The notes beneath the pieces are model-generated. The model was not told where the DNA came from, ran no database searches, and saw nothing but the letters and a program-made list of their open reading frames with translations. The translations under genes were made by a program, and so were the position numbers. Below are positions 4,601 through 41,027 of a DNA stretch of 41,312 nucleotides, one piece after another. This stretch comes from a virus, in IMG/VR virus record IMGVR_UViG_3300039098_000081, positions 1 to 41,312 of that record. One strand, given 5' to 3'. The number at the start of each line of letters is the position of its first letter. The first letter of the stretch is position 1.

Positions 4601-4822
4601 ATGAGAATCGGTGACGTGCAGATTACAAGCGCAAAGATTGGCACCTTTGACCCAGAAAAACTCAACCCGGTTGCCAAGGCTCAGTGGCGGGCTCTAGGAG
4701 AGAGGCTTGGGAGGCTGAAAGAGTTCCAGGCCGCCCACCCCGTTCTAACCAGGCTTGCAAAGGTGCCGTTTGTAGGGAGTATCTACCGGCGCAAAATGTT
4801 CGCGCATGTGGGCATTATTTAG
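4601..4822 (+). CDS. Hypothetical 73-residue protein
   Basis: ATG is preceded by a strong GGGGGA ribosome site. The product is basic and soluble-looking, with LNPVAKAQWRALGERLGRLKEF in its centre suggesting an amphipathic helix. The C-terminus ends in hydrophobic residues. It is the last gene before an intrinsic terminator at 4848. No family recognised; probably a minor structural or assembly protein by position only. Confidence 0.6.
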   Translation: MRIGDVQITSAKIGTFDPEKLNPVAKAQWRALGERLGRLKEFQAAHPVLTRLAKVPFVGSIYRRKMFAHVGII

Positions 4823-4847
4823 CTGGCTGAAAAACATTTTTGCAACG

Positions 4848-4881
4848 ACCCGCCCTGCCTCACGGTAGCGGCGGGTTTTTT
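4848..4881 (+). terminator. Rho-independent terminator upstream of the scaffold gene
   Basis: ACCCGCC (4848-4854) pairs exactly with GGCGGGT (4870-4876) around a 15-nt loop, and six T follow. It separates the terminase/portal genes from scaffold and coat. It lies inside the presumed late transcript, so it is either partly read through or suppressed by antitermination. Confidence 0.85.
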
Positions 4882-4930
4882 GTTGGAGACACAGAACCGA
4901 CTGTCGAGAGACAGCCAGAAGGAGCGAGAC

Positions 4931-5848
4931 ATGGCAGAAGAAGCCGCACCTGTTAGCGGGGCAGAAGAGGTTACGGAGCCTCTTGAAACCGAAGACACCG
5001 AAACCCCCGAAGAAGAAACCGAAACGTCTGTTCAGGAAGACGAGGACAGCGGCGAGGAGTCCGAAGAGACTGATTCCGACGAGGAACCCGCCGAAGAGGT
5101 AGACGCCGAAGGGCAGGAACACAAGAAGGACGCACAGAGCCGCATCCAGCAGCTTGCCAACGAAAAGCGCGACCTGGCGAACAAGCTGGACGCTCTGGAA
5201 TCCAAGGTCAACCAGACTTTGGAGCAGCGCAACGAGATCCCCGCCATCAACGAGGAAGCACTAAACGCCCACCTCGGCCAAATGCGGGAACAGATCGACG
5301 ACCTGCGGTTGGAAGGAAACCACCTCCAGGCCGACATGCTGGAGCGCAAGCGCAACGGCCTCTTGGACGAGTACGACAAGTGGCAAAAGGGTGCAGAAGA
5401 AAAGAAGCAGCAGAACGGGCAGCAACAGCAGTATCAGCAGCAACTAGACGGCGTTCTCGTCGCCGCCGACAAGTACCAGGAGCACTACAATGTCCCCAAA
5501 CCGCTGTGGGACGAAATGGGCCAGTGGTTCCGTGGCGAAATGGAAGCCGACAAGCTGCTGGCGCAGGAGTTCGACGATGTGATGCTGCGGCAAGGCCCGG
5601 TCGCTGCGGTCCGGTTCGCCCACGACAGAGCCAAGCCGGTTTTCGAGGCCAAGGCCAGGGAAGCGACCGAAGCCAAGAAGAAGCGCGAGGCGGCCAAGGG
5701 CAAGCAGCCGGGCGGCGGGGCAGGCAAGACCAGCAGCGGCCCGAAGAGTTACAGCGCCCTGCTCAACCTCGGCAGCGCAGCACTGTCAGCCTATAAAAAA
5801 AGCAATCCAAAGCATTACCAGAAGTTGTTCGACTCTCACATGAAATAA
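4931..5848 (+). CDS. Scaffolding protein
   Basis: A 305-residue protein directly upstream of the coat gene. The first 60 residues are extremely acidic (Glu/Asp/Thr-rich). They are followed by a long charged coiled coil with Gln runs, then a basic Lys/Ala-rich segment and a C-terminal helix ending KKSNPKHYQKLFDSHMK. Acidic N-terminus, central coiled coil and basic C-terminal coat-binding helix are hallmarks of phage scaffolds, which direct procapsid assembly and then leave. ATG at 4931 is preferred because AAGGAG lies eight bases upstream; an in-frame TTG at 4880 has no such site. Confidence 0.85.
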   Translation: MAEEAAPVSGAEEVTEPLETEDTETPEEETETSVQEDEDSGEESEETDSDEEPAEEVDAEGQEHKKDAQSRIQQLANEKRDLANKLDALESKVNQTLEQRNEIPAINEEALNAHLGQMREQIDDLRLEGNHLQADMLERKRNGLLDEYDKWQKGAEEKKQQNGQQQQYQQQLDGVLVAADKYQEHYNVPKPLWDEMGQWFRGEMEADKLLAQEFDDVMLRQGPVAAVRFAHDRAKPVFEAKAREATEAKKKREAAKGKQPGGGAGKTSSGPKSYSALLNLGSAALSAYKKSNPKHYQKLFDSHMK

Positions 5849-33388: not shown

Positions 33389-33871
33389 ATGGACGAGCAT
33401 CAAATCAAAGCTTTCTGGTCGAAGATTGATGTGAGAGACAGCAACAAGGAGTGCTGGCCTTGGCTTGGAGCGAAAACGCCAACCGGGTACGGAAATCTAG
33501 CAATTAACGGCAAGTACCTAAAAGCCCATAGGGTAGCGTGGGAGTTATGCAACTTTGAAATCCCGAAAGGGTATGTAGTGATGCACGTTTGCGACAACCC
33601 TTCTTGTTGCAACCCAAATCACCTTGTCCTCGGTACACACAAGGCCAACACCACAGATATGGTTCTTAAGAACCGGGGTGGTTTCCATAAAAACAGGGCA
33701 AAAGGTGAAAGGAACTACAACGCAAAACTCACAGCAGAAGCGGTAAAGGAAATAAGACGAGATTATGCTGCGGGAAAGGCGACGCAATACGATCTTGCTG
33801 ACAGGTTTGGCGTGACACAAACGGCCATAAGCTGCGTTTTAAAAAACAAAACATGGAGGCATGTAGCATGA
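33389..33871 (+). CDS. HNH homing endonuclease upstream of ssb
   Basis: A 160-residue protein. CWPWLGAKTPTGYGNL, KAHRVAWELCN, VVMHVCDNPSCCNPNHLVLGTH is the HNH_3 nuclease core. The C-terminus (LTAEAVKEIRRDYAAG, then QYDLADRFGVTQTAISCVL) is a DNA-binding helix-turn-helix. Free-standing HNH genes of this kind spread between phages. Its stop overlaps the ssb start (ATGA) and its last codons contain the ssb GGAGG, so ssb translation depends on it. Confidence 0.9.
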   Translation: MDEHQIKAFWSKIDVRDSNKECWPWLGAKTPTGYGNLAINGKYLKAHRVAWELCNFEIPKGYVVMHVCDNPSCCNPNHLVLGTHKANTTDMVLKNRGGFHKNRAKGERNYNAKLTAEAVKEIRRDYAAGKATQYDLADRFGVTQTAISCVLKNKTWRHVA

Positions 33872-37728: not shown

Positions 37729-38009
37729 GAGACAGGTCTCTCACCGAGGCGATGGGGTCGGAGCGTTGGAATGATTACGATAGAACAGAGCATAACAATA
37801 CGTTTTCATCTTGGCGGGGCTTCGGCAAGCTGTGGGAGTGGGCGCAGCAGCAAGAGTGGTTCAAGAAGTTTCTTGTGTCAGCAAATGTTTCGTGCGGTTA
37901 CGAAATGAGCATTGATTTTGCCGAGGCTGTTGGCGTGTCCTTGCCAGACGAACTTATCCAACCTGACCGCTTCGCAGATGCAGTTTACTCTTTTCTCAAG
38001 GAGGCTTGA
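37725..38009 (+). CDS. 94-residue hypothetical protein
   Basis: ATG 37725 overlaps the previous stop and has AAGAAGGA upstream; an in-frame ATG at 37704 is the alternative. Aromatic and polar (FSSWRGFGKLWEWAQQQEWFKK) with an acidic second half. No family recognised. It couples to the last early gene by TGATG. Confidence 0.6.
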   Translation: MRDRSLTEAMGSERWNDYDRTEHNNTFSSWRGFGKLWEWAQQQEWFKKFLVSANVSCGYEMSIDFAEAVGVSLPDELIQPDRFADAVYSFLKEA

Positions 38010-38392
38010 TGAACTGGAGACAACGAAACAAGCAAAGAGTTTTCCTGGCAGCGGTAGAGGTGTTTGAAACAGCCCACCATGCAACAGCCTGTGGCATGAG
38101 TCGCAAGCTGAACGAACTGGCCGAGTTTGTGGACAAGGGCGGCAAGGTGGGTAAGGGGGCGTTGTTTGTCACGGCGGCGAGGGGGAGCAACCACTCTTGG
38201 CTCGATTGGGCGGTGGACTTCCTTGCGTGCCTACCGAAAGACCCGGCAGAAAAAGCGGCGATTGTCGCGGAATACAACGGTGAATGGAGCCGGAGCGCGA
38301 GGCGGAAGAAGACGGTGCGGAGGTTCTGGCGGCACGTTAAAGACCGGGGGCTGGAAAAAGAGGGGGAGATTATCGCGCAGAAGCTGGCCTAG
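38009..38392 (+). CDS. Last early gene, possible late regulator
   Basis: A 127-residue basic protein. It has helical sequence with GMSRKLNELAEFVDKGG, a middle LDWAVDFLACLPKDPAEKAA and a strongly basic C-terminus (SRSARRKKTVRRFWRHVK). It is the final gene of the early operon and lies directly before a strong promoter followed by a terminator, the position of lambda Q. A Q-like antiterminator role is inferred from position only; no Q-family sequence was recognised. Its stop codon overlaps a terminator hairpin. Confidence 0.6.
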   Translation: MNWRQRNKQRVFLAAVEVFETAHHATACGMSRKLNELAEFVDKGGKVGKGALFVTAARGSNHSWLDWAVDFLACLPKDPAEKAAIVAEYNGEWSRSARRKKTVRRFWRHVKDRGLEKEGEIIAQKLA

Positions 38393-38400
38393 CTTTTTTT
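38381..38400 (+). terminator. Early-operon terminator overlapping a stop codon
   Basis: AAGCT (38381-38385) pairs with AGCTT (38391-38395) around GGCCT and runs into a seven-T tract. The stem is short, but the U-run is good. It closes the early operon immediately before the promoter at 38439. Confidence 0.6.
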
Positions 38401-38438: not shown

Positions 38439-38468
38439 TTGACAAAAAGTGATTAGTTGTGCTATATT
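38439..38468 (+). promoter_or_regulatory. Strong sigma70-type promoter (late-promoter candidate)
   Basis: TTGACA (38439-38444), 18 bases, then TATATT (38463-38468), the best promoter match in the window; the start is expected near 38475. The surrounding 70 bases are AT-rich. It reads into a hairpin terminator about 50 bases further on, then the structured region, and if antiterminated into the late genes. This recalls PR' of lambdoid phages. Confidence 0.8.
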
Positions 38469-38497
38469 TCGATAACATTGCGAGAGTAGTAAATAGA

Positions 38498-38528
38498 GGG
38501 GTTGCAGAGATGCAGCCCCTTTTCTTTT
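38498..38528 (+). terminator. Promoter-proximal terminator (tR'-like)
   Basis: GGGGTTGCA (38498-38506) pairs with TGCAGCCCC (38511-38519), one G-U, closing a GAGA (GNRA) tetraloop; TTTTCTTTT follows. It begins about 25 bases after the predicted start of transcription, so by default only a ~50-nt RNA would be made. Confidence 0.85.
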
Positions 38529-39136
38529 AACGGGAGGCCGTAACAGACGGACAGACCGCCGAACTGGTCAGGGAGCAACCTAGGCACTGTGACCCTCTGG
38601 ACGGTTGGAGCGATAACAAGCGGCGGAACTCCGCATCTCCCGACCATTTATCAGCGTTCCCGCTCTGCGCTGCCGCCCATGCCTCCCGAAATTACGGGGA
38701 AACAGGCGGCAGGGTATCGGGCTTGAAGTCCTTGGGCAACCAAGGCCACCCCGCACCTTTCGCGAAGGTTGAGAAGGGGTGCTGTTTTAGCCTCACATTG
38801 CGCCAGCTTCGGCGTAGAAAAATAGAGCCCATGTTACTCCGTGTGGAGGCAGCGGACAAATTGAGCAAAACTGCGAGAGTGGCCATAGCGCAGGAGTAGC
38901 GGACGAGCCAACGGGGTGCCAATAAAAACCAGCTTACCTGCCATGATGCAGGCAGAGTAACGAGGTCGTGACAGCGGCCATTAGCCTCACCCGCCAAGCC
39001 GGGAAGCGGTCTTGACCCGCTACGGCGGCGATAGCAGTTAACAAGTTTCGTCTGCGGCGTGGAAGCGTCGGGGTGTCCCAGGCCAATAACCTGTAGGTAG
39101 CCGAGTGGGGAATCCGGCCAGACGAAAACACACCGG

Positions 39137-39164
39137 GCCGTCCTTCGGGGCGGCTTGCCTTTTT
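39137..39164 (+). terminator. UUCG-capped terminator ending the structured region
   Basis: GCCGTCC (39137-39143) pairs with GGGCGGC (39148-39154), one G-U, around TTCG, an extra-stable tetraloop. TTGCC and then five T follow. It lies ten bases before the next gene start, whose GGGGGAGAG site immediately follows the T-run. Confidence 0.75.
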
Positions 39165-39173
39165 GGGGGAGAG

Positions 39174-39356
39174 ATGAAAACTATCGTAGCTGTGTATCTG
39201 TTTATTGTTCTTTTGGTCGCCGTTGGATGGGTGAAGAACATTGTTAAGTTGACGCAATGCGACTTTGAAACGCCCTATAAAGCCGAGGTGATCCATGCAG
39301 TTGGTGTTTTGCCGCCAGTGGGCGCTATCACCGGCTGGCTGGACCTTGGAGAATAA
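39174..39356 (+). CDS. 60-residue single-TM phage protein (conserved type)
   Basis: ATG 39174 after GGGGGAGAG. A hydrophobic N-terminal segment (TIVAVYLFIVLLVAVGW) is followed by VKLTQCDFETPYKAEVIHAVGVLPP, a pattern recurring in small phage membrane proteins, often written N-x-x-x-L-x-x-C-D-F-x-x-P-Y. Topology is probably N-in with the conserved part outside or membrane-associated. Function unknown. It lies between two terminators. Confidence 0.75.
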   Translation: MKTIVAVYLFIVLLVAVGWVKNIVKLTQCDFETPYKAEVIHAVGVLPPVGAITGWLDLGE

Positions 39357-40091: not shown

Positions 40092-41027
40092 ATGAAGAAA
40101 ACATGCAAGGTTGATGGGTGTAACGATAAGGTTCACGCCAAAGGGTATTGTTCCAAACATTATACAAGAATCAAGCGATATGGCGATCCCCATTTCTCAA
40201 AGCAGGTTCGTGGCTCTGGTTCTTTGGAAGATCGGTTTTGGGCGCATGTTGAAAAGTGCGAAGAAACTGGCTGTTGGTTTTTTCGCGGGGCCAAGAGTCG
40301 CGGTTATGGCTTCCTTAACAACCGCACAAGGGGCCGCAACAAAATTGTCAAGGCGCATAGGCTTTCATACGAAATGCACGTTGGCCCGATACCAGAAGGC
40401 ATGGCAGTCGTGCATAAATGCAAAAACCGTGATTGTGTCAACCCAGACCACCTAGAGATAAGGACTGTTAAGAAGTGCGTTATTGACGGGTGCGAAGAGA
40501 AAATTCAGGCAAGGGGGCTTTGCAAAAAGCATTATACGCGGCTACTAAGGCACGGCGACCCTGAGTTCACAAAGGTTGAGACTGGCACACCAGAAGAAAG
40601 GTTTTGGGCGCACGTTAAGAAAGGGGGAGCCAACGACTGCTGGCTGTTCGACATTCTTGACGGGAAGGGTTATGGGATCCATTCCATTGGCAACAAGGGC
40701 GTGAGAGCACACAGGTTCGCTTATGAGCTTCTTGTCGGGCCTATCCCTGATGGGTTGGTGGTGCGGCACCGTTGCAGGAGCAAGAACTGCGTGAACCCGA
40801 AGCATTTGGAGGTAGGGACGCAAAAGGACAACGCGCTTGACAGATTGAGAGACGGAACTGAGACACGAGGCGAAGCCGTTCACAACAGTAAGTTGACAGA
40901 AGCCGCAGTTTTGGAGATCAAGCGATCCTCTCTACCTGGGTATAGGCTAGCGGAGAAATACGGGGTCACCAGCGGGGCGATATATGCTGTCCTTTCTGGC
41001 AAAAACTGGAAGCACGTTGAGGTATAG
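40092..41027 (+). CDS. Tandem double-HNH homing endonuclease
   Basis: A 311-residue protein after GGGGG. Two similar halves each have a Cys/His finger (CKVDGCNDKVHAKGYCSKHY at residues 5-24, and CVIDGCEEKIQARGLCKKHY) and an HNH_3 core (DRFWAHVEKCEETGCW to VHKCKNRDCVNPDHLEIRT; and ERFWAHVKKGGANDCW to VRHRCRSKNCVNPKHLEVGT). A single C-terminal HTH follows (LTEAAVLEIKRSSLPGYRLAEKYGVTSGAI). Internal duplication could make a one-chain nuclease with two active sites. It inserts between small late genes near terminase. Confidence 0.88.
   Translation: MKKTCKVDGCNDKVHAKGYCSKHYTRIKRYGDPHFSKQVRGSGSLEDRFWAHVEKCEETGCWFFRGAKSRGYGFLNNRTRGRNKIVKAHRLSYEMHVGPIPEGMAVVHKCKNRDCVNPDHLEIRTVKKCVIDGCEEKIQARGLCKKHYTRLLRHGDPEFTKVETGTPEERFWAHVKKGGANDCWLFDILDGKGYGIHSIGNKGVRAHRFAYELLVGPIPDGLVVRHRCRSKNCVNPKHLEVGTQKDNALDRLRDGTETRGEAVHNSKLTEAAVLEIKRSSLPGYRLAEKYGVTSGAIYAVLSGKNWKHVEV

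Follow-up and report, generated by a model that had tools for sequence, protein, structure and literature searches.

The put sites of phage HK022 are located directly behind its early promoters and function without a phage protein. In the late switch of lambdoid phages, proteins of the lambda Q type act at the late promoter and enable the polymerase to pass the terminator (PMC6266700). The large RNAs GOLLD and ROOL, also known from phages, are frequently found near tRNAs (PMC12286853). The gene-free stretch considered here belongs to a temperate, podovirus-like phage, represented by a 41,312-base IMG/VR viral contig (the window) on which integrase, repressor, terminase and DnaC-like loader were found, and it lies between a gene at 38006-38392 and another at 39174-39356. 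The original prediction described it as possibly one self-standing ornate RNA of 690 nt resembling GOLLD or ROOL, a view that was not supported in light of an immediate terminator, folding at background level, a conserved portion of ~66 nt and variable relatives. What survived of it was a non-coding and probably transcribed phage region, for which partial conservation was found elsewhere in the same position. The stretch is probably the untranslated leader of the phage late operon, provided with a lambda-like antitermination switch, and the leader is best read as a mosaic, partly conserved and untranslated segment that would act in cis.

In agreement with the earlier claim, no believable gene was found between positions 38393 and 39173, none of the scanned frames (stop-to-stop frames of at least 44 aa, compared with Pfam and PHROG) presenting a match beyond chance. 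The leader itself (38531-39133, + strand) carries no gene, has structure at the level of shuffled sequences and is mostly devoid of detectable relatives. In fact, DNA relatives of the whole stretch were sought in phages, plasmids and the genomes of related prophages and none was found, and peptide-pattern scans of both long frames together with a 16-mer scan recovered zero relatives. A bacterial genome gave a 25-base match, which sits in a chromosomal coding region and appears to be due to chance. It is highly improbable that the stretch is protein-coding, now or in the recent past: there are open frames of 122 codons on the + strand and of 156-159 on the - strand, but family matches were missing among the scanned frames and tblastn revealed no relatives. 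The first late gene after the leader (39174-39356, +) encodes a 60-aa protein of PHROG 6006 (E 3e-11), a group with no assigned function. Elsewhere in the window, a double HNH protein is encoded at 40092-41027 and an HNH-like one, judged from the protein sequence alone, at 33389-33871.

The consensus promoter of the original prediction proved to be a near-consensus sigma-70-type sequence (38439-38468, +) that closely follows the gene at 38006-38392, TTGACA-18-TATATT with an extended –10, agreeing with the consensus at 11 of 12 positions, and comparable promoter-like sequences occupy the same place in the related loci L002, L003, L104 and L114. A promoter-proximal intrinsic terminator resembling tR′ (38495-38529, +) starts 27 nt past the –10 box; it has a 12-bp stem and a GAGA loop, and its helix at 38495-38522 is followed by TTTTCTTTT, which makes it a strong terminator of the intrinsic kind, placed immediately after the promoter. 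The first helix ascribed to the large RNA is therefore present, with a folding z of –4.6 for the hairpin 38496-38527 alone, but it corresponds to this terminator, which had been overlooked. Its hairpin has a counterpart in L114 identical at 26 of 27 positions, a score matched by 0 of 500 shuffles.

This layout recurs in other phages. Relatives of the gene at 38006-38392 were found in the same place in L002, L003, L104, L111, L113, L114 and L115, and the order of gene, promoter and terminator seen in the window is repeated in L104 and L114, as well as in L003, but with two genes inserted ahead of the promoter in the latter. In L002, whose terminase is 76% identical to that of the window, the relative of the upstream gene is directly followed by an extended –10 promoter-like sequence with a poor –35 box and by a terminator, the long leader being absent; the alignment of its leader with that of the window was not beyond chance. 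In relatives such as L003 and L115, the terminase genes are found downstream with the same orientation. The two genes inserted in L003 are bordered by a 17-base repeat, GGCCATAGCGCAGCAGC (4884-4900 and 5461-5477, +), of which 16 of the 17 bases recur at 38881 in the window leader, possibly by chance.

From this layout, host RNA polymerase would start at 38439-38468 and, unaided, halt ~50-60 nt further on at the first terminator, so that a short stub RNA would be the product; transcription of this stub only would keep the late genes off in the lysogen and in early infection. The small helical protein encoded at 38006-38392 (+) is proposed as the late antiterminator, Q-like by position only, and would load onto the polymerase at or near the promoter, allowing read-through of the first terminator. 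Comparisons of this protein with Pfam, PHROG and PDB and by fold returned zero matches and no link to any antiterminator, a search for its relatives in ~790 genomes of two phyla gave nothing convincing, and no qut site could be identified for the window switch. The antiterminated polymerase would then pass the second terminator towards the packaging and head genes, and the ~600 nt separating the two terminators would be transcribed in the antiterminated state alone. This second intrinsic terminator (39134-39164, +), with its hairpin at 39134-39157 and a UUCG loop, is the one claimed originally. A terminator of the L115 leader can be aligned with it at a score reached by 0 of 300 shuffles, a likeness that could have arisen by convergence, UUCG terminators being common.

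The rich structure announced for the region was not recovered. The whole of 38478-39164 presented a folding z of –1.9, mainly because of the terminators; when these were removed (38531-39135), the MFE z was –0.73, 17 of 60 dinucleotide shuffles folded at least as well, and the reverse complement behaved alike. Counts of perfect helices were 12 for a minimum length of 7 bp, 3 for 8 bp and 1 for 9 bp, against 9.6, 2.6 and 0.7 in shuffles, which places the 605 nt between the terminators at shuffle level by both measures. Some of the elements described do exist, but at frequencies expected by chance. These are the two crossing 8-bp helices of the pseudoknot (38531-38538/38681-38688 and 38670-38677/38705-38712) and, at 39046-39127, the terminal domain with its closing helix of 9 bp. 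The hairpin said to be GNRA-capped folds with CGC as the loop in the MFE structure. In a z-score scan of the + strand, the segment with the first terminator was prominent in this region and the remainder far less so. The lowest run of the same scan, below that of the leader, was located at 4651-5490 of the window, over and before the gene at 4880-5848.

The absence of a known RNA class was likewise corroborated, as Rfam searches of the window produced nothing at gathering score and permissive matches lay far under the gathering scores; group I and II introns, HEARO and the other Rfam families gave no match in the window. The GOLLD covariance model matched neither the window nor the relatives, and ROOL had no cmscan match at gathering or permissive settings; an additional ROOL search was silent too, as was its control, which leaves that search by itself uninformative. 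Among the relatives, Rfam detected tRNA in L104 and L113 only. For a large ornate RNA, the observations are folding at background and relatives detectable for ~66 nt only.

Those ~66 nt, termed block X (38930-38995, +), are the part of the leader conserved elsewhere in the same position, and the sole such piece demonstrated in the window. Block X was delimited by a covariance-model match and by alignments, and RNAalifold gives it a fold of two hairpins, P1 (38932-38958) and P2 (38962-38982). The late leader of L104, a locus reached via the upstream regulator, aligns with 38931-39084 of the window. The score exceeded all 500 shuffles under three scoring schemes; under a fourth, 2 of the 500 shuffles reached it, while a fifth yielded near-global alignments and was uninformative. 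The pattern search based on this alignment brought in L111, L113, L114 and L115, in all of which block X stands behind the regulator, promoter and terminator; with L104, five contigs besides the window have it in this position. The terminase of L115 is of the window's type (74%), and the packaging genes of L104 and L114 are of other types.

A covariance model built from L104, L111, L114 and L115, with the window left out, produced a single match in the 41-kb window at E values up to 10, at 38930-38995 (12.7 bits, E 0.046). Restricted to the leader, the search gave E 0.00077, with a runner-up of 1.9 bits; the same match had E 0.96 in a pooled search of 51 sources, and therefore the leader position supplies part of its weight. 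Any further copy within the window was below significance. A weak match in the prophage locus L013 (21.8 bits), on the strand opposite to the terminase, is probably due to chance. The promoter-proximal terminator of L003 (6076-6101, +) resembles hairpin P2 (GGCCGTTACGG) and was weakly matched by the model (15.4 bits, E 0.15), and block X may have derived from a duplicated terminator.

In the window, block X shows ~74% identity over 42 nt with its hairpins kept: in P1, one U-G has become G-C by a double change, one C-G has become U-G and the two outer pairs are lost, and P2 is preserved in a shortened form. Covariation in this block amounts to that one double change, too thin to call; with four distinct sequences, 121 of 500 shuffles were equally good, and the changes are no more than suggestive. 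A coding function of block X is unlikely. Between L114 and L104/L115, one frame has replacement changes only and another, in favour of coding, has 4 silent and 2-3 replacement codon differences. Stops interrupt the third frame in the relatives, and the copy in the window has a stop codon in each of the three + frames. The idea that these frames resemble phage "Ash" ORFs was not supported by family scans or tblastn.

The leaders of L003, L104, L114 and L115 have pieces in common, with sharp borders, and those of the relatives in general vary in length and in what they contain, which includes small genes, tRNA-Thr and the end of an IS605-type element. The tRNA-Thr (TGT) gene has block X on one side and the closing terminator on the other in L104 (6661-6736, +) and L113 (5745-5820, -). 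On its upstream side, block X is adjoined in L104 (6374-6415, +), and also in L111 and L113, by a sequence like the right end of IS605-type elements, with the rest of an element absent; plasmids of Geoalkalibacter and of enterobacteria have similar ends. Such mosaic borders, the IS605-type end and tRNA of the relatives and the lack of relatives for most of the stretch would suit an inert hotspot behind the late promoter, where passing sequence collects and block X is a leftover of recombination. That explanation is quite improbable, given that block X holds its position in phages whose packaging genes are unrelated, and that its hairpins are kept at the divergence described above. The leader is not mere filler, its block X being shared with the late leaders of other phages. 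Under the late-operon leader reading, the ~600 nt from one terminator to the other would form a mosaic spacer that, among the relatives, gains and loses small genes, tRNA, the IS605-type end and conserved blocks, with block X most likely acting in cis, either on the passing polymerase or on processing of the leader.

A second conserved piece, block Y, was found in the late leaders of relatives at L003 6450-6536 (+), L115 12795-12880 (-) and, partly, L114 6046-6083 (-), where 33 nt of it recur. It is an 87-nt non-coding sequence with a well-formed two-part structure, its differences sitting in loops or preserving pairs, one of them via a C-G to U-A change. Block Y was absent from the window and had no match in Rfam, and it is arguably a better RNA candidate than the region reported originally. 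The two blocks might represent a modular phage RNA class, undescribed so far, that is common to phages with unrelated packaging genes, resides in late leaders and either steers antitermination or forms a stable lytic-phase RNA; a new RNA class in general, and this version of it, are considered unlikely. It is improbable, too, that transcription or processing of the leader yields, late in infection, a stable and structured non-coding RNA of an undescribed class with block X as its conserved core and the rest varying as the GOLLD 5′ region does. The conservation of block X in non-coding DNA with one pair-keeping double change, the well-structured block Y, the two terminators bounding the region and the tRNA beside block X in L104 and L113, recalling the vicinity of GOLLD and ROOL to tRNAs (PMC12286853), are consistent with such an RNA. 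However, folding energy and helix counts are at background, detectable relatives cover ~66 nt only, the relatives differ in length and content with L002 lacking such a leader, and covariation is indistinguishable from chance.

The claim of a giant RNA is replaced by a testable model of a late switch. Short conserved hairpin blocks, missing from the RNA database searched, are present in the gene-free late leaders of such phages. Should block X act on the polymerase, phage antitermination would have in it a new cis element, whose likely partner would be an unrecognised small protein.

Compared with known systems, the region resembles GOLLD (RF02032) in its phage setting, in its length and in the tRNA that two relatives carry inside it, but differs in having no model match, no structure excess and no conserved 3′ half. 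The likeness to ROOL (RF03087) extends to phage setting and length, whereas model match and structure excess are lacking. In layout, block X is like the put antitermination RNA of HK022 in that a pair of neighbouring hairpins precedes a terminator in a nascent phage transcript, but it lies ~460 nt downstream and behind the first terminator. The lambdoid late switch shares with the window a small regulator gene, a strong promoter, a terminator within tens of bases and the late genes. It differs in that the window regulator has no recognisable Q sequence or fold and that a long leader, which contains hairpin blocks and another terminator, follows the first terminator. Because the regulator fails the homology test for Q, the window switch is graded as working like the lambdoid switch and not as a member of it, while the gene-promoter-terminator layout of that switch is found in the window and recurs in its relatives.
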